Assembly (NCBI GenBank): GCA_902603475.1
Contig: CACKUZ010000003.1
Span: 1-64,000 of the forward strand
Length of the DNA: 64,000 nt
Direction of reading: 5' to 3'
DNA from: an uncultured Pelagibacteraceae bacterium
Lineage (GTDB): Bacteria; Pseudomonadota; Alphaproteobacteria; Pelagibacterales; Pelagibacteraceae
Shown here: positions 44,915 to 50,776 of the stretch, in pieces
How positions within the stretch are numbered: position 1 is the first letter of the stretch
Layout: every line of letters begins with the position of its first letter
The notes under the pieces: model-generated
Database searches by the model: none
What the model was told of the DNA's origin: nothing
What the model saw: only the letters and a program-made list of their open reading frames with translations
Program-made: the position numbers and the translations under genes

Positions 44915-46054
44915 TTAAATTGATATTTTTTGATCTTTAAACCAATTATTTATAATGAGAAATTCGTGCAATGAAATTCCTTTTTGAGTATCGTGAACAA
45001 ATATTTGATCTTTAATGCCTTCCTTGTTGTTTTCTAAGTCAAATTTCCTTTCATTATTTGACCATTTCTTTGGGAAGCTCATCAATTCAGATTCTATTTT
45101 ATAAATTTTCTTATATTCTGGATATTTTATTGAATATTCATGGCAACCACGTTTACTTTCAACAGTAAAATTATCTAATAAAGTCTCAAAAACTTTTTTT
45201 GTTTTTTTCTCAACATCAAGAACTTGTTGTAAACTTGTACAATATATTATACTTTTAAATACGTCTTCATTTGTTCTTTTGTCAATCATATTTTTTCTAT
45301 TAAAATTATTAAAAAATTCAATTTTATCAAAAATTAAAGAAACTTTTAATAAATCAAAAAAATTTTTAGTCTCCACAACTACTTTAAAACATCCAAAGCA
45401 ATATTCAGGAATAGTATTGTATTTAAAAAAGATTGATTTATGTCTTTCACAATTAAGAAAAATAGATTTTTTTCGAAAAATTTGTACTTTATTATACGTT
45501 AGATCAGCTAAGTTTTTTGAAACAATTTTTTTGCACTTTTTAAAGTAGTTTATCATATGACTGTCTGATATTTTTTTAGTAAAATCTATTTTACAAGGGA
45601 TATTGAATATTTTTTTGTTCAAATCTAATATTTGATTTTCGTTGTAATTATCAGGTTTGTAGAAAGATAATAATTCAATAATCTTATCTCTAGCAAGCTT
45701 ATAATCTTTTTTAATGGTTAAAGCTTTTACAAAACAATCATAGGATTTTTTTAAATCTTTAGTATTAAAATAAACTAGACCTAAATTGTAATATGCTGTA
45801 TGGAAATTAGGATTAATTTTAATGGCAGTTTCAAAATCAAAAATTGCCTGTTTCAAGTCATTCAACCTAAAGTTAATTAATCCAACAATATTATGGAATT
45901 GTGGGAAATTACTTAAATTAGGTGCCTTTGATCTGTTATAGTTAGCTTCCAGTAATGCTTCTTTTAGTGATTTTGTATTATAACTAATTATAATTTTATT
46001 TAATTGATCCTGCTCATTTTTATCTGTTGAAAAACTCATACTGTGATCAGCCAA
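44915..46054 (-). CDS. TPR-repeat protein with cysteine/histidine-containing C-terminal domain
   Basis: 379 aa; NPNFHTAYYNLGLVYFNTKDLKKSYDCFVKAL TPRs, then NCERHKSIFFKYNTIPEYCFGCFKV. Confidence 0.75.
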   Translation of the reverse strand: MADHSMSFSTDKNEQDQLNKIIISYNTKSLKEALLEANYNRSKAPNLSNFPQFHNIVGLINFRLNDLKQAIFDFETAIKINPNFHTAYYNLGLVYFNTKDLKKSYDCFVKALTIKKDYKLARDKIIELLSFYKPDNYNENQILDLNKKIFNIPCKIDFTKKISDSHMINYFKKCKKIVSKNLADLTYNKVQIFRKKSIFLNCERHKSIFFKYNTIPEYCFGCFKVVVETKNFFDLLKVSLIFDKIEFFNNFNRKNMIDKRTNEDVFKSIIYCTSLQQVLDVEKKTKKVFETLLDNFTVESKRGCHEYSIKYPEYKKIYKIESELMSFPKKWSNNERKFDLENNKEGIKDQIFVHDTQKGISLHEFLIINNWFKDQKISI

Positions 46055-46102
46055 TTAATTATAAAATATTGTTCAGTTATCACAAAAAACATAGGCTAAA
46101 AT

Positions 46103-46177
46103 TGGAGCGGGCAATGGGACTCGAACCCACGACCTTCTCGTTGGCAACGAGACGCTCTACCACTGAGCTATGCCCGC
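46103..46177 (-). tRNA. tRNA-Gly (anticodon GCC), CCA encoded
   Basis: Reverse complement GCGGGCATAGCTCAGTGGTAGAGCGTCTCGTTGCCAACGAGAAGGTCGTGGGTTCGAGTCCCATTGCCCGCTCCA folds as a complete cloverleaf; anticodon stem CTCGT-TGCCAAC-GAG region gives GCC. Confidence 0.97.
46139..46177. repeat. Left attachment-core repeat (39 bp), inside the intact tRNA-Gly
   Basis: cgttggcaacgagacgctctaccactgagctatgcccgc, exact copy at 49039-49077. Confidence 0.97.
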
Positions 46178-46252
46178 TTATTCTATAAGTATTGAAAGTA
46201 TTAGCTTTTTAAAAATTAAGCAAGAAGCTATTTTAGTAAAATTTCAACTGAA

Positions 46253-46274
46253 GTGTGTCGAGAGTGTGCCGAGA
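46253..46274. repeat. Left-end tandem 11-bp iterons (GTGTGTCGAGA GTGTGCCGAGA)
   Basis: Two abutting 11-mers with one mismatch, ~76 bp inside the left core repeat; related copies at 48961-48982. Confidence 0.85.
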
Positions 46275-46277
46275 TTT

Positions 46278-46814
46278 TTAGGTGGATTTCAGGCCATCTT
46301 CATCACGATTTTTAATTTTTTCTCCAGTTTTATATTTGTAATCATGTTTTTCACCAAGACCAACTTGCTTCTTAATTGTCGAAATTTGTATTTCTAATTC
46401 TTTAATTTCTTTCGATATTTTATTTTTTTCTGTTTTAGTTACTATTCCATCTTTTATTGCACTACTAACAGTTTCTGAAACGTCACCAAGCTCTTCAAGA
46501 ATTTTTGTCACTGTTTGACGGATTTCATCTGGCTTATAGTTAGTGGAATTTCCAGTGGCCTTGTCTAAAATAGTTTTATAGCTTTCAAGCAAAGGTGTTC
46601 CAAAACCATTTTTTCTGCAATATATATCTAAATCAACTGCATCTTTTAGATCAATATGTCTACCTGGGTGCTCAGGATTGCTCTTTTTTAGAAAAGTGTC
46701 TTTACCTTTTCCTGTTGCTTCTTTGAGACCTGTATCTCCAATTTTTTCAATTATATCTTTAAGACTATCTTCAATAGAATAGGGGTTTCTATTTATGTAA
46801 CGTTTTTCCTTCAT
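46278..46814 (-). CDS. Phage CII-like/helix-turn-helix regulatory protein (tentative)
   Basis: 178 aa; SLKDIIEKIGDTGLKEATGKGKDTFLKKSNPEHPGRHIDLKDAVDLDIYCRKNGFGTPLLESY resembles phage regulator families, with a C-terminal helical segment. Confidence 0.55.
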   Translation of the reverse strand: MKEKRYINRNPYSIEDSLKDIIEKIGDTGLKEATGKGKDTFLKKSNPEHPGRHIDLKDAVDLDIYCRKNGFGTPLLESYKTILDKATGNSTNYKPDEIRQTVTKILEELGDVSETVSSAIKDGIVTKTEKNKISKEIKELEIQISTIKKQVGLGEKHDYKYKTGEKIKNRDEDGLKST

Positions 46815-46944
46815 TTTCTTACTCTAGTTACTTTTTTCTTGTCCGTAAAGAATCAATTTAAACGACGGGTTTATTTTGATTGTTTTAATTATGGTTATCT
46901 CATGAACAAAAAAAACAAAAACAACACAACAGAAAGGAAAATAG

Positions 46945-47052
46945 ATGAAATTATGCTCTGAACAGTCACAAGAAAAAATGAATAGTTCTTTTCTCCTTAT
47001 TATTCAATCTTGGATTGTTCAGGGCATAAAAACTCTAGTTATAAAAATATGA
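46945..47052 (+). CDS. 35-aa leader ORF translationally coupled to the DUF4268 gene
   Basis: SD agaaaggaaa, then ATG; MKLCSEQSQEKMNSSFLLIIQSWIVQGIKTLVIKI*; its TGA overlaps the downstream ATG (ATGA). Not in the ORF track. Confidence 0.45.
   Translation: MKLCSEQSQEKMNSSFLLIIQSWIVQGIKTLVIKI
46951..47029 (+). promoter_or_regulatory. Long nested stem-loop upstream of the DUF4268 gene
   Basis: ttatgctctgaaca (46951-46964) pairs with tgttcagggcataa (47016-47029) with one G-U; inner stems CAAGA/TCTTG and TGAATA/TATTCA. Confidence 0.65.
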
Positions 47053-48020
47053 AAACACAATTAAACACATTAGAAAATGTAGACATAAGAAATATATGGG
47101 AAAATGAAACAAATGATTTTACTCCTTGGTTGGCTCAATCAGATAATATAGACCACATTGGTGAAGCAATTGGTATTGATTTAACTGTTGAGGAAAAGGA
47201 AAAACCTGTAGGTCCTTACAGAGCAGATATATTCTGTAAAGATGAGGGGGAAAATCCAGTATTAATTGAAAATCAATTAGAAAGCACTGACCACAAGCAT
47301 TTAGGTCAACTTTTAACTTATGCATCAGGATTAGATGCTGTAACTATTATATGGGTAGCTTCAGAATTTAGTGACGAACACAGAGCAACCTTGGACTGGT
47401 TGAATGAACATACTGCTCAAGGAATAAATTTCTTTGGTATAGTTATTGAAGTTAAAAAAGGTAATGGTCACCACTATCCTGTTTTTAATGTTGTAAGCCA
47501 ACCAAATAATTGGTCAAAAAGCATTAATTCAGATGGTTATAAAACTTATGGAAAACTAACTGAAACAAAAAAAAAGCAACAAGACTTTTGGGTATTTCTA
47601 AAAGATAGACTAAACGAAAGAAAAATAACTTCTATTAAACCACACACACCAAAAGCTTGTCATTGGCTAAACTTCGCAATTGGTACAACGGGCACATGTA
47701 TGTCAGCAACTGTTGATACTAATAGAGAAGCTATGAGTGTTGGTATTCGAATAAGATCAGATAAAGATTTATATCATAGATTAATGCAACAAAAACAAGA
47801 GGTTGAAGATGAGTTTGGAGGATCTTTCAAATGGTTCACCAAGGAAGATAAAAAGTGCTCTAACATTCGTTTTTATAACGAAGACTTTGATATCGACAAT
47901 AAAATCAAATGGAAAGCGTACGCTGATTGGATGATTGAAAATTTACTTAAACTACAGAAAGTATTTTCACAAAGAGTAAAACTTCATAAAACAAATGATA
48001 ACGAGGTAAGTATTAACTAA
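47049..48020 (+). CDS. DUF4268-like protein with PD-(D/E)XK-type nuclease fold signature
   Basis: ORF track starts at 47010 (non-ATG); ATG at 47049 preferred (323 aa). PYRADIFCKDEGENPVLIENQLESTDHKHLGQLLTYASGLDAVTIIWVA is a D-x(n)-ExQ core. Confidence 0.75.
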   Translation: MKTQLNTLENVDIRNIWENETNDFTPWLAQSDNIDHIGEAIGIDLTVEEKEKPVGPYRADIFCKDEGENPVLIENQLESTDHKHLGQLLTYASGLDAVTIIWVASEFSDEHRATLDWLNEHTAQGINFFGIVIEVKKGNGHHYPVFNVVSQPNNWSKSINSDGYKTYGKLTETKKKQQDFWVFLKDRLNERKITSIKPHTPKACHWLNFAIGTTGTCMSATVDTNREAMSVGIRIRSDKDLYHRLMQQKQEVEDEFGGSFKWFTKEDKKCSNIRFYNEDFDIDNKIKWKAYADWMIENLLKLQKVFSQRVKLHKTNDNEVSIN

Positions 48021-48021
48021 T

Positions 48022-48774
48022 ATGAAATCAAAAGAATTCAATAAAGTTAAACCATATACCTACTTCATAAAAAGAAAATCTGATAATTTAAAATATCATG
48101 GAGTAAGATGGGCAAACAAAGTAGCTCCTTTAAGTGATTTTTCATTTATATATTTTGGAAGTAGTAAAAGTGACAAAGATTTTTGTGAAGAATTTAAAAG
48201 GAATAAAGATAATTTTGTTTATAAAATATGCTGGACTTTTAATAGTATCGAAGAAGCTAGAAATTACGAAACAAAAATTAATAAAAAAATTTATAGACGT
48301 TTTGATTGGGTAAACAAAAATGCCTTCCCAGCTATTTTTTTGGATGAAGAGTCAAAGAGGAAAATATCTATTTCCAAAAAAGGTAAATCATTTTCATCTG
48401 AAAAGCATAAAGCTGCAGTTATAAAATCTAATAAGACAAGAATTCTAGGTCCAGAATTTTATGCAAAATGTTCAAAGATAAATAAAGGTAAAAAATTTCC
48501 AAAAGAATTTAGAGAAAAAATTTCTAATTCTAGAAAGGGGATGAAGCTTTCTAAATTGCATAAGAAGAATATTGGACTTGGTGTAAAAGGTGAAAAAAAT
48601 GGCATGTTTGGGAGAAATCACTCTCCAGATACGAGAAAAAAAATATCTAATGCAAGAATAGGAAAAGCGCCATGGAATAAAGGGAAAAAATATAAAACTG
48701 GGAACATTCCTTGGAACAAAGGAATTAATTGGAAAAGAAAAATTAATAGAAAGGAGGTAAACAATTATGTCTAG
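48022..48774 (+). CDS. NUMOD3-containing, GIY-YIG homing-endonuclease-like protein
   Basis: 250 aa; YTYFIKRKSDNLKYHGVRWAN...FIYFGSSKS N-terminal region and repeated K-I-S-x(n)-KG-x(n)-S motifs (KRKISISKKGKSFSSEKH, REKISNSRKGMKLSKLH, RKKISNARIGKAPWNKGKK). Confidence 0.75.
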   Translation: MKSKEFNKVKPYTYFIKRKSDNLKYHGVRWANKVAPLSDFSFIYFGSSKSDKDFCEEFKRNKDNFVYKICWTFNSIEEARNYETKINKKIYRRFDWVNKNAFPAIFLDEESKRKISISKKGKSFSSEKHKAAVIKSNKTRILGPEFYAKCSKINKGKKFPKEFREKISNSRKGMKLSKLHKKNIGLGVKGEKNGMFGRNHSPDTRKKISNARIGKAPWNKGKKYKTGNIPWNKGINWKRKINRKEVNNYV

Positions 48775-48949
48775 AAGGAAGACTAAGATAAATAAATCTC
48801 AAAAAGATCAACTTGATTTGTATAAAGATTATGAACCAGATGGCAGAGATCTTGCAGAATGGTTAGGATCATCTGAAAAAACAGATCCTGATTATGATCC
48901 TGCTGATCATTGGGCTTCTATTGAAACCGATAAAAGAATAGGCAAATAA
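48767..48949 (+). CDS. Small acidic 60-aa protein
   Basis: Overlaps the end of the NUMOD3 gene; preceded by aaggaggt SD at 48751-48758; MSRRKTKINKSQKDQLDLYKDYEPDGRDLAEWLGSSEKTDPDYDPADHWASIETDKRIGK. Confidence 0.7.
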   Translation: MSRRKTKINKSQKDQLDLYKDYEPDGRDLAEWLGSSEKTDPDYDPADHWASIETDKRIGK

Positions 48950-48960
48950 TTCTTCTTTAA

Positions 48961-49013
48961 TTGTGCCGAGAGTGTGCCAGAAAGTAAACTTAACGTTTGA
49001 AATTCTGGCATAC
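48961..49013. repeat. Right-end iterons plus inverted copy (TTGTGCCGAGA GTGTGCCAGAA ... TTCTGGCATAC)
   Basis: Tandem 11-mers at 48961-48982 related to the left-end iterons; 48972-48982 pairs with 49003-49013 (one G-U). Confidence 0.8.
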
Positions 49014-49038
49014 TTAAAAAGTAACCTGAATTATAAAA

Positions 49039-49077
49039 CGTTGGCAACGAGACGCTCTACCACTGAGCTATGCCCGC
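49039..49077. repeat. Right attachment-core repeat: truncated 5' half of tRNA-Gly
   Basis: Exact 39-bp copy of 46139-46177; no 3' half follows on the minus strand, so not a functional tRNA. Confidence 0.97.
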
Positions 49078-49132: not shown

Positions 49133-50776
49133 TTAAAATTTGATCTGATTATTTTTTAAAATATTTTGCATAGGCTTAAGGTAATCACTATATTTTTCCC
49201 ATTGTTTTGATGTATTTTTTTTAATTTTATCTCTAACCTGATTAAAAGATGCAGTTTTAACTACTCTATGAGTCTTTTCATAATTTCTTAACTCATCTTC
49301 CCAATCTAAATCAAATTTTAATAGAATATTTTTTGTTTGTAATTCGAAATCTTTTACAAAATCTTCATAATTTATATTGATAATTTGATTTTTAAATTTT
49401 TTAAACCAAAATTTCATTAAGTCATTATACAAAATAAAATATTTAGCCATATCTTCTTGGCTCAAACTAAAATCAAGTCCATTATCAACAAATAATGTCT
49501 TATAATTTGACCAACAAACTGCCATAGGATTTCTATCTATATGAATGATTTTCGCTTCTGGAAAAGCATTAACAATATAACCTATCCATCTACAATTTAG
49601 TGGAGTCTTGTCAATTATGTAAGGTTTTTCGGAAATTTTTGATAAATTTTTATAATAATAATTTCTAATTTCAGTAAAGTAATATTTTATATCTTTTGGT
49701 TTTATTAAACCTAACTGATTTATAATTTTCTCTAGATAATTTAGCTCTCCAGCTCCATGAATTTTTGAATGTGTAGATAAAATTTGCTCCAATAAAGAGG
49801 TTCCTGACCTTGGCATACCAAGTATAAAAACTGGTTTACTTTTAATTCCATCGCTAAATTTTAAATTGAAATTGGCAGTACTCTCAAAAAATTCTTTGAT
49901 ATTTTTATATTTGTCTTGTTGTTTTGAGAGGGAGAATTTTGTAGTTTCTTTTTTTATTACATTTAATTTTTCTAAATAGTTGAAACCTAAGTCATTGTTT
50001 TTTTGGTCAAAATAACATTTACTTAAAGCATCGAAAATTAAAATTTTTTCATGATTATTTAATTTATCGAAATTTAAATTTTGGAAATGCTTAAATAACT
50101 TATCGTTCTTATCTATTTTAGTTATGCTGACATAATTTCTAAAACTTGGGATATTTGATTGATCTAATTTTAACACTTTTTCAAAGTAATTTTTTCCCTC
50201 TAATATATTTCCTAAAAATAAATAGGCTGATCCTAGATTGTAAAGAGTTTTAATATGATTCTTATCAAACTGTAATAATTTTTTATATATTTTAATTAAA
50301 TCCTCAAATTTATTATTTTCTTGATATATTGATGCGAGGTTAAAGAGTGCTTCTATATTATTATCTTTTAACTTGATGGCCATTTTAAAACATTCAATTG
50401 CCTTACCTGGTTCATTTAAAGATTTTTTTATATTACCTAAATTATTAAATGCCTCTGAAAAATTTGGATTTAATTCAATTGCTTTTTCAAATGAAGCGGA
50501 TGCTTCGGAATATTTTTTTAAACTTTTGAGTATGTTTCCATAAATATAATATATTTCGTATGTTTTTTTTAAAGATAATAATTTCTCAAAGTATTTTTCA
50601 GCATTCAAATGTTTTTGAAGATTTATAGAGCTTAAACCTAATAAGTAAATTAGTTGAGTATCATTAGATTTTTTTTTAATTAATTTTTCTCCAAATTTAA
50701 TTACATCTTGATACTTTTTTTCTTTATATAACTCTAAAATTTTCTGTTTTTTTTTATCAAAAAAATTTGAAATCAT
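49133..50776 (-). CDS. TPR-repeat sulfotransferase family protein
   Basis: 547 aa; multiple TPRs; KPVFILGMPRSGTSLLEQILSTHSKIHGAGELNYLE; IIHIDRNPMAVCWSNYKTLF. Confidence 0.88.
   Translation of the reverse strand: MISNFFDKKKQKILELYKEKKYQDVIKFGEKLIKKKSNDTQLIYLLGLSSINLQKHLNAEKYFEKLLSLKKTYEIYYIYGNILKSLKKYSEASASFEKAIELNPNFSEAFNNLGNIKKSLNEPGKAIECFKMAIKLKDNNIEALFNLASIYQENNKFEDLIKIYKKLLQFDKNHIKTLYNLGSAYLFLGNILEGKNYFEKVLKLDQSNIPSFRNYVSITKIDKNDKLFKHFQNLNFDKLNNHEKILIFDALSKCYFDQKNNDLGFNYLEKLNVIKKETTKFSLSKQQDKYKNIKEFFESTANFNLKFSDGIKSKPVFILGMPRSGTSLLEQILSTHSKIHGAGELNYLEKIINQLGLIKPKDIKYYFTEIRNYYYKNLSKISEKPYIIDKTPLNCRWIGYIVNAFPEAKIIHIDRNPMAVCWSNYKTLFVDNGLDFSLSQEDMAKYFILYNDLMKFWFKKFKNQIININYEDFVKDFELQTKNILLKFDLDWEDELRNYEKTHRVVKTASFNQVRDKIKKNTSKQWEKYSDYLKPMQNILKNNQIKF

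Follow-up and report, generated by a model that had tools for sequence, protein, structure and literature searches.

A 2.9-kb integrase-less island in a SAR11 tRNA-Gly gene is probably a cassette recombined in trans

How does a genomic island that encodes no integrase come to occupy a tRNA gene? This question is raised by a 64,000-nucleotide stretch of contig CACKUZ010000003.1 (hereafter the window) from an uncultured bacterium of the Pelagibacteraceae (SAR11), in which a small island carrying a phage-type regulator and two nuclease-like genes lies in tRNA-Gly between two copies of a 39-bp repeat. SAR11 genomes are very small, and to our knowledge the ways in which they gain and swap genes, above all those for phage defence, are poorly understood. 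In two earlier papers, SAR11 bacteria are counted among the most abundant marine bacteria (PMC3502338, PMC7542561). The comparisons below indicate that the island is probably a non-autonomous, site-specific cassette that is recombined in trans by the tyrosine integrase of a satellite or phage, and that its cargo is probably defensive.

The 39-bp core repeat reaches from the anticodon loop to the 5' end of tRNA-Gly, and its two copies are identical at all 39 positions and spaced 2900 bp apart (Table 1). In the whole draft genome (823 kb, 65% complete) the repeat occurs only at these two places, whereas a reversed-pattern control gave none. This count and the match to the 5' half of the tRNA rule out a chance origin of the repeat. 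Since an intact tRNA gene stands on the left and a displaced half on the right, the element supplies the 5' half of the tRNA together with its upstream DNA. The preliminary description of this locus correctly took the repeat as the bounds of the segment (46139-49077), but the island proper is 46178-49077, as the intact tRNA is kept on the left. The G+C content of the island (~28-32%) is somewhat higher than that of its flanks (~21-28%). No integrase or integrase remnant was found in the island when a tyrosine-integrase profile was run at maximum sensitivity on all six frames with stops masked, and gene calls and family searches found no terminase, packaging or replication gene, in agreement with the earlier claim that integrase, recombinase and replication genes are missing.

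We then compared the locus across the family; most of the genomes compared are single-cell or metagenome drafts. The tRNA-Gly half was present in 181 of the 297 family genomes drawn, about 15 of which had two copies. Both empty sites and alternative cargo, for which a comparison across SAR11 had been proposed, were found. At the empty sites PCD, tRNA-Gly and LON adjoin (L011, L018, L024, L029 and L031), so the gene block is not shared by all relatives. Twelve occupied tRNA-Gly sites were read (the window, G043, G262, G140, G242, G168, G269, G117, G058, G205, L166 and L168), and an integrase was found in none of these 12 islands, nor at the loci reached through the arm repeats described below. 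Their cargo includes a choice-of-anchor I beta-propeller protein (G140, G242 and G262), an HNH-like gene (G168; assigned by reading, with a weak Pfam match to DUF968), a PDC-S11 gene alone (G058), a 915-residue protein (G117) and a 23.5-kb type IV pilus cluster (G205). The window and the islands L166 and L168 have a common backbone at tRNA-Gly, ~810 bp on the left and ~144 bp on the right, between which the genes are quite different.

The key test was that mobile islands are expected to be more alike between genomes than their flanks. Two integrase-less islands from single-cell genomes (L038 and L039) agree at 99.9% of positions over a length of 1608 bp, against 70.9% and 68.9% in the flanking DNA. 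Similarly, for the integrase-less islands L166 and L168 the identity is 98.0% across 2286 bp, against 70.0% and 67.1% in the two flanks. On either side, the sequences part at the core itself, and the tRNA 3' halves already differ in the positions that adjoin it. Judged from these alignments, breakpoints that coincide with the core are characteristic of site-specific recombination, and they are most simply explained by movement of the sister elements without an integrase of their own.

At each end, the island also carries a tandem of two 11-bp units, which had not been mentioned in the preliminary description. The left and right ends match at 19 of 22 positions, a value reached by none of 200 dinucleotide shuffles. 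In tRNA-Gly islands of this type, the distance from core to arm, measured inwards, is nearly fixed (71-76 bp on the left and 78-83 bp on the right); a different arm pair, at different distances, is present in L041 and L042. Of 24 islands over all sites, 18 gave a left-right arm match with p < 0.04. The arm motif was found in 27 of 399 genus genomes (reversed control, 0). Across the genome collection it occurs in 38 stretches, of which 35 belong to Pelagibacteraceae; by our own estimate, about 2 occurrences of the pattern are expected by chance in 257 Gb. Arm matching was chosen after the window had been seen, against which the p-values of the other islands and the reversed controls guard in part. 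In integrase-bearing elements, namely the phage contigs L033 and L035 and the circular contigs L057, L121 and L122, a core derived from a tRNA lies next to the integrase gene and has GTGTG-type repeats on both sides, and because of this likeness we regard the 11-bp repeats as putative arm-binding sites of an integrase. Two viral contigs (L034 and L146) were rejected as arm carriers; there the motif lies inside coding DNA and looks like a chance match.

Cassettes of the same type were also found at other RNA genes. The arm motif led to tRNA-Thr(TGT), where islands of 0.8-3.1 kb occur, some of them in tandem, and one cassette, part of an array in one case, occurs in two genomes with 99.9% identity across 1171 bp. 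Independently of the arms, homologues of the PDC-S11 protein were detected in 10 of the 397 family genomes searched, that of the window among them, and eight of these 10 genes lie between complete RNA-gene repeats: at tRNA-Gly (window and G058), tRNA-Thr (G706 and G594), tRNA-Leu(TAA) (G696) and tmRNA (G250, G173 and G084). A ninth lies beside tRNA-Leu with one end seen (G699), and the tenth has no RNA gene in reach (G134). No integrase was found in the PDC-S11 loci. One cargo family thus occurs at four RNA genes. Only two RNA genes are occupied in the complete genome G017, which indicates that the cassettes are not universal. Cargo other than PDC-S11 also seems to be common to several sites. 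A family of secreted proteins of ~190-200 residues recurs in tRNA-Thr and tmRNA islands (L109 and L200). In addition, the locus L103 of genome G392 looks like a cassette array, with tRNA-Thr half repeats at about 4218, 5345, 7049, 9321 and 10879 and, between them, genes for pseudopilins, the cassette L106 and a distant DUF4268 gene.

The genes of the island are listed in Table 1. A CII-like regulator on the minus strand and a divergent plus-strand cassette had been described, and the Phage_CP76 score of the regulator is indeed above the Pfam cut-off. It has a 95% identical counterpart in L166 and L168, and homologues are present in 34 of the 297 family genomes. The two nuclease-like genes of the cassette were likewise recovered by profile searches. 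The 35-residue open reading frame (ORF), which had been counted as a gene, is doubtful: it coincides with a long, near-perfect hairpin at about 46951-47030, 5' of the DUF4268 gene, and a full-length match to ORF or hairpin was found in none of the 150 relatives searched. No hairpin counterpart was matched in the other fetched loci. An RNA structure at the 5' end is a likelier reading of this segment than a protein, and candidate roles for the hairpin are those of an attenuator, a regulator site and an RNA component. The 60-residue protein resembles a 64-residue protein at the right end of L166 and L168, a likeness judged by eye, side by side and without an alignment score.

Table 1. Features of the island and its target gene (positions in the window).
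Feature	Position	Strand	Remarks
tRNA-Gly(GCC), target gene, left intact	46103..46177	-	ARAGORN; Rfam RF00005, 75.3 bits
attL-side core repeat, tRNA-Gly 5' half	46139..46177		39/39 identical to 49039-49077
Left arm-type site, two 11-bp units GTGTGTCGAGA GTGTGCCGAGA	46253..46274	+	Starts 76 bp inside the core
CII-like regulator, 178 aa (Pfam Phage_CP76; phrog_101)	46278..46814	-	E 1e-8, 35.6 bits; Pfam cut-off 26
35-residue ORF overlapping an RNA hairpin	46945..47052	+	Minimum free energy -35.5 kcal/mol, z -7.4
PDC-S11/DUF4268 protein, 323 aa	47049..48020	+	PD-(D/E)XK-type N-terminal domain (D60, E74-N-Q76) and DUF4268 C-terminal domain
GIY-YIG-like protein with NUMOD3 repeats, 250 aa	48022..48774	+	Homing-endonuclease family; NUMOD3 2e-11
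60-aa protein	48767..48949	+	Without database family
Right arm-type site TTGTGCCGAGA GTGTGCCAGAA	48961..48982	+	~80 bp inside the core
attR-side core repeat, displaced tRNA-Gly 5' half	49039..49077		Divergence of sister loci starts directly after the core
Conserved left backbone (tRNA, arm, CII-like gene, start of divergent promoter region)	46102..46913		88-89% nucleotide identity to L166/L168
Conserved right backbone (end of 60-aa gene, right arm, core)	48937..49077		86-87% nucleotide identity to L166/L168

The DUF4268 protein matches the Pfam family DUF4268 (5.5e-26) and, over its full length (residues 1-312 on model positions 1-314 of 318), the PADLOC family PDC-S11 (E 1e-110). D60 and E74-N-Q76 are kept in all aligned homologues from SAR11 and viral contigs. 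An AlphaFold2 model of the protein (pLDDT 76.5, pTM 0.46) was searched with Foldseek, and the best nuclease matches of its N-terminal domain were to EndoMS/NucS (2.5-3.1 Å over 94-112 columns, E about 2e-3); a sequence search of the PDB with the DUF4268 profile gave nothing. DUF4268 is also found fused in type IV restriction enzymes of the GmrSD family (PMC4619093). Because of the motif, the NucS-like fold match and the occurrence of DUF4268 in GmrSD-family enzymes, the protein most likely restricts foreign DNA, as far as sequence and a predicted structure can tell. Furthermore, the SAR11 members of PDC-S11 are cargo of tRNA or tmRNA mini-islands, and their partner genes are often nucleases. 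At least four cases have another nuclease adjoining, the partners including the NUMOD3 protein (window), a T5orf172-type GIY-YIG protein (G594) and endonuclease/exonuclease/phosphatase proteins (G706 and G084). The anti-phage role suggested earlier for the two nuclease-like proteins is plausible.

The GIY-YIG-like protein is 37% identical over residues 11-102 to a homing endonuclease of Aeromonas phage PX29 and resembles free-standing homing endonucleases. Its GIY-YIG N-terminus was assigned through phrog_314 and the likeness to the PX29 protein, and it gave no Pfam GIY-YIG match. At three non-tRNA sites without flanking repeats (L299, L300 and L301), a CII-like gene is divergent from a NUMOD3/GIY-YIG gene, and a small lipoprotein gene is present in two of them. 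As this pair recurs outside tRNA islands, the GIY-YIG gene may be a partner of the regulator and not of the DUF4268 protein.

Two further features of the tRNA-Gly locus were observed. TPR genes lie on both sides of the island, at 44915-46054 between PCD and tRNA-Gly and at 49133-50776 between the island and LON. Both are absent from several empty-site relatives, so the locus is a wider hotspot. The G205 island, also integrase-less and in the same tRNA-Gly, spans L044:1661-19901 and L045:1-5755, and its pilus cluster holds ~10 tandem pseudopilin genes with a constant N-terminus and variable C-termini. The idea, raised on reading the sequence, that PilM of G205 is fused to an integrase arm-binding domain was dropped for want of profile support.

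Which element could provide the integrase? The closest helper candidate, though not proof, is L057, a circular viral contig of 5875 bp with a 123-bp terminal repeat that looks like a phage satellite. It encodes a 317-residue tyrosine integrase, an AAA ATPase and a small terminase, and it carries the tRNA-Gly core without the 3' half, with arms TTGTGTGCCAAGTGTGTAC and TTGTGTCGGAGTGTAGCC on its two sides. In addition, the beta-propeller islands have at their right end the sequence GGACTACCT that adjoins the L057 core. In 397 family genomes, no relative of the L057 integrase was found next to tRNA-Gly; the integrases recovered adjoin other RNA genes or have no RNA gene nearby. The exact 39-bp core was not found in the annotated phage collection, where the matches were mostly to phage tRNA-Gly genes; the tailed-phage contig L058 was rejected as an attP carrier, its terminal tRNA-Gly-like stretch being probably a phage tRNA gene. 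Two other circular viral contigs of 5.9-6.1 kb (L121 and L122) have an integrase 66-67% identical to that of L057 and a core in the 5' half of tRNA-Val, and G017 holds a 7-kb integrated relative at tRNA-Val (L139) with a truncated integrase (residues 1-123).

The recent moves of integrase-less sisters, the arms at both ends, the common occurrence of empty sites and the different cargo on the same backbone strongly support the proposal of the preliminary description that the island is a trans-mobilised cargo cassette. The steps of its movement, from the identity of the helper through circularisation and the route between cells to the role in defence, we infer as follows. The cassette DNA would provide what a tyrosine integrase needs for binding, namely the anticodon-half core of tRNA-Gly and the 11-bp tandem arms on both sides. 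The integrase of another element in the same cell, an L057-like satellite or a temperate phage, would recombine the two cores, and the cassette would circularise and then insert into the tRNA-Gly gene of a new cell. The tRNA would remain intact after insertion because the cassette brings the 5' half and its upstream DNA. Control of the divergent cargo operon probably falls to the CII-like regulator, which may also respond to the helper, and the swappable PD-(D/E)XK DUF4268 and GIY-YIG nucleases would probably restrict the DNA of incoming phages or rival elements, thereby paying for their carriage.

Several points weigh against this account. Neither an excised circle nor a junction read was seen, and the horizontal transfer was observed for the sister islands and not for the copy in the window. 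In the automatic test, arm matching was not significant for six of the 24 islands. An element combining an integrase with the exact GTGTGYCGWGAGTGTGYCGAGA arms at tRNA-Gly was not found, the arms of L057 being similar and not identical. The integrase profile covered tyrosine recombinases only; at 65% completeness a helper could be missed in the source genome, whose single Phage_integrase match (317 residues) is probably the housekeeping Xer recombinase. On the side of the cargo, PDC-S11 is a candidate defence family only, and the Foldseek matches are weak (E about 1e-3; pTM 0.46), though they agree with the D-E-x-Q motif.

Other origins of the island were weighed against these data. It could be a dead relic, the immobile remainder of a satellite or prophage that inserted here and then had its integrase deleted. 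Truncated integrases do occur in SAR11 elements, as the G017 island at tRNA-Val shows, and for Dehalococcoides ssrA islands that lack integration modules a mobile past has been discussed as a possibility (PMC3146451). However, no remnant of a degraded integrase, as expected of an old prophage scar, is detectable, the cores are 100% identical and the arms intact, integrase-less sisters recently passed between species, and the integrase-less layout is common to elements about 86-89% identical. Loss of an integrase, the other origin proposed in the preliminary description, may apply to a distant ancestor, but the integrase-less form itself has moved, and we consider a dead relic improbable. A packaged phage satellite, for which a helper phage would give both integrase and capsid and the island would hide a packaging signal, is a stronger form of recombination in trans. 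Its tiny size, its phage-type regulator and the satellite-like L057 with a small terminase fit this idea, which we nevertheless hold to be unlikely: at the gene level (pac/cos sites were not sought) the island has no terminase, packaging or replication gene, and the integrase that known satellites need for excision is said to be encoded by the satellites themselves (PMC10803314).

Movement without any integrase would require another route. Natural transformation followed by homologous recombination in conserved flanks could draw on the 39 bp of exact homology in the tRNA and on the conserved neighbours PCD and LON, but flanks that are ~70% identical beyond the core are a poor substrate, the breakpoints lie at the core with differing tRNA 3' halves, and paired arms and tandem cassettes at several RNA genes would be left unexplained. 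On the strength of the flanks and the core-exact breakpoints, homologous exchange was rejected as very improbable. Even less credible is homing, in which the GIY-YIG/NUMOD3 endonuclease would cut empty tRNA-Gly sites and repair would copy the island in. The protein does come from homing-endonuclease families, and pairs of CII-like and GIY-YIG genes occur at non-tRNA sites, but sister islands with the same core and without such a nuclease share the ends and have moved, for which reason homing was rejected as the cause of the island, and homing neither makes direct repeats nor needs arm sites.

Compared with known systems, the cassette recombined in trans works most like a cis-mobilizable or 'hitcher' element (PMC3146451, PMC11389934): att sites are present at both ends, and recombination and transfer genes are absent. 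Cis-mobilizable elements such as the Dehalococcoides ssrA islands (PMC3146451) are likewise att-flanked, without integrase, limited to cargo and often in tandem beside an RNA gene. In contrast to these, the SAR11 islands are mostly 0.7-3 kb and mostly alone, with no integrase-bearing neighbour in an array; they keep arm repeats at both ends, carry the same cargo family at four RNA genes and occur as near-identical copies in diverged species. VEIMEs, tycheposons and PICMIs (PMC11389934, PMC10803314, PMC10872708), which are phage satellites and integrative elements, are also marine and integrate at tRNA genes or other specific sites, with a regulator and cargo that may include defence. However, PICMIs encode an integrase and tycheposons are reported to span 4-200 kb and to carry a tyrosine recombinase, whereas the SAR11 island has no integrase, replication or packaging gene and so shows neither the integrase nor the packaging or replication functions of phage satellites (PICI, PICMI and VEIME). 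CALINs (PMC11389934) are arrays of small cassettes without a recombinase that are thought to be moved in trans, but the site in SAR11 is a tRNA half with arm repeats in place of attC, which the island lacks, and the target is a tRNA gene. The additive flexible genomic islands of Methylophilaceae, also streamlined aquatic bacteria with recurring tRNA-end repeats, use the last 20 bp of tRNA-Lys, and the available part of that paper describes no arm sites, integrase-free transfer or helper (PMC10872708). A phage-integrase-guided island (PMC9745183) was set aside as a precedent, since it concerns a defective prophage with its own integrase. In the open-access literature on these themes, which does not include the original VEIME and tycheposon papers, we found no description of such SAR11 islands.

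Taken together, these results raise the tentative view, to which we give somewhat less than even weight, that SAR11 bacteria have a tRNA-anchored cassette system, in which a shared pool of integrase-less cassettes of 0.7-3 kb and tandem arrays with interchangeable cargo is moved between cells and between tRNA and tmRNA sites by satellite or phage integrases. Cassettes made of recombination sites and one to four cargo genes would be cheap to keep and would escape island finders that depend on an integrase; a tRNA half with paired 11-bp arm repeats is the signature by which they can be searched for. The finding challenges the statement that satellite excision needs a satellite-encoded integrase, and it gives a testable route for the transfer of single defence genes. 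If true, the system would be a counterpart of integron cassette arrays in which tRNA halves replace attC, and one of the main ways for a streamlined genome to gain single defence genes.

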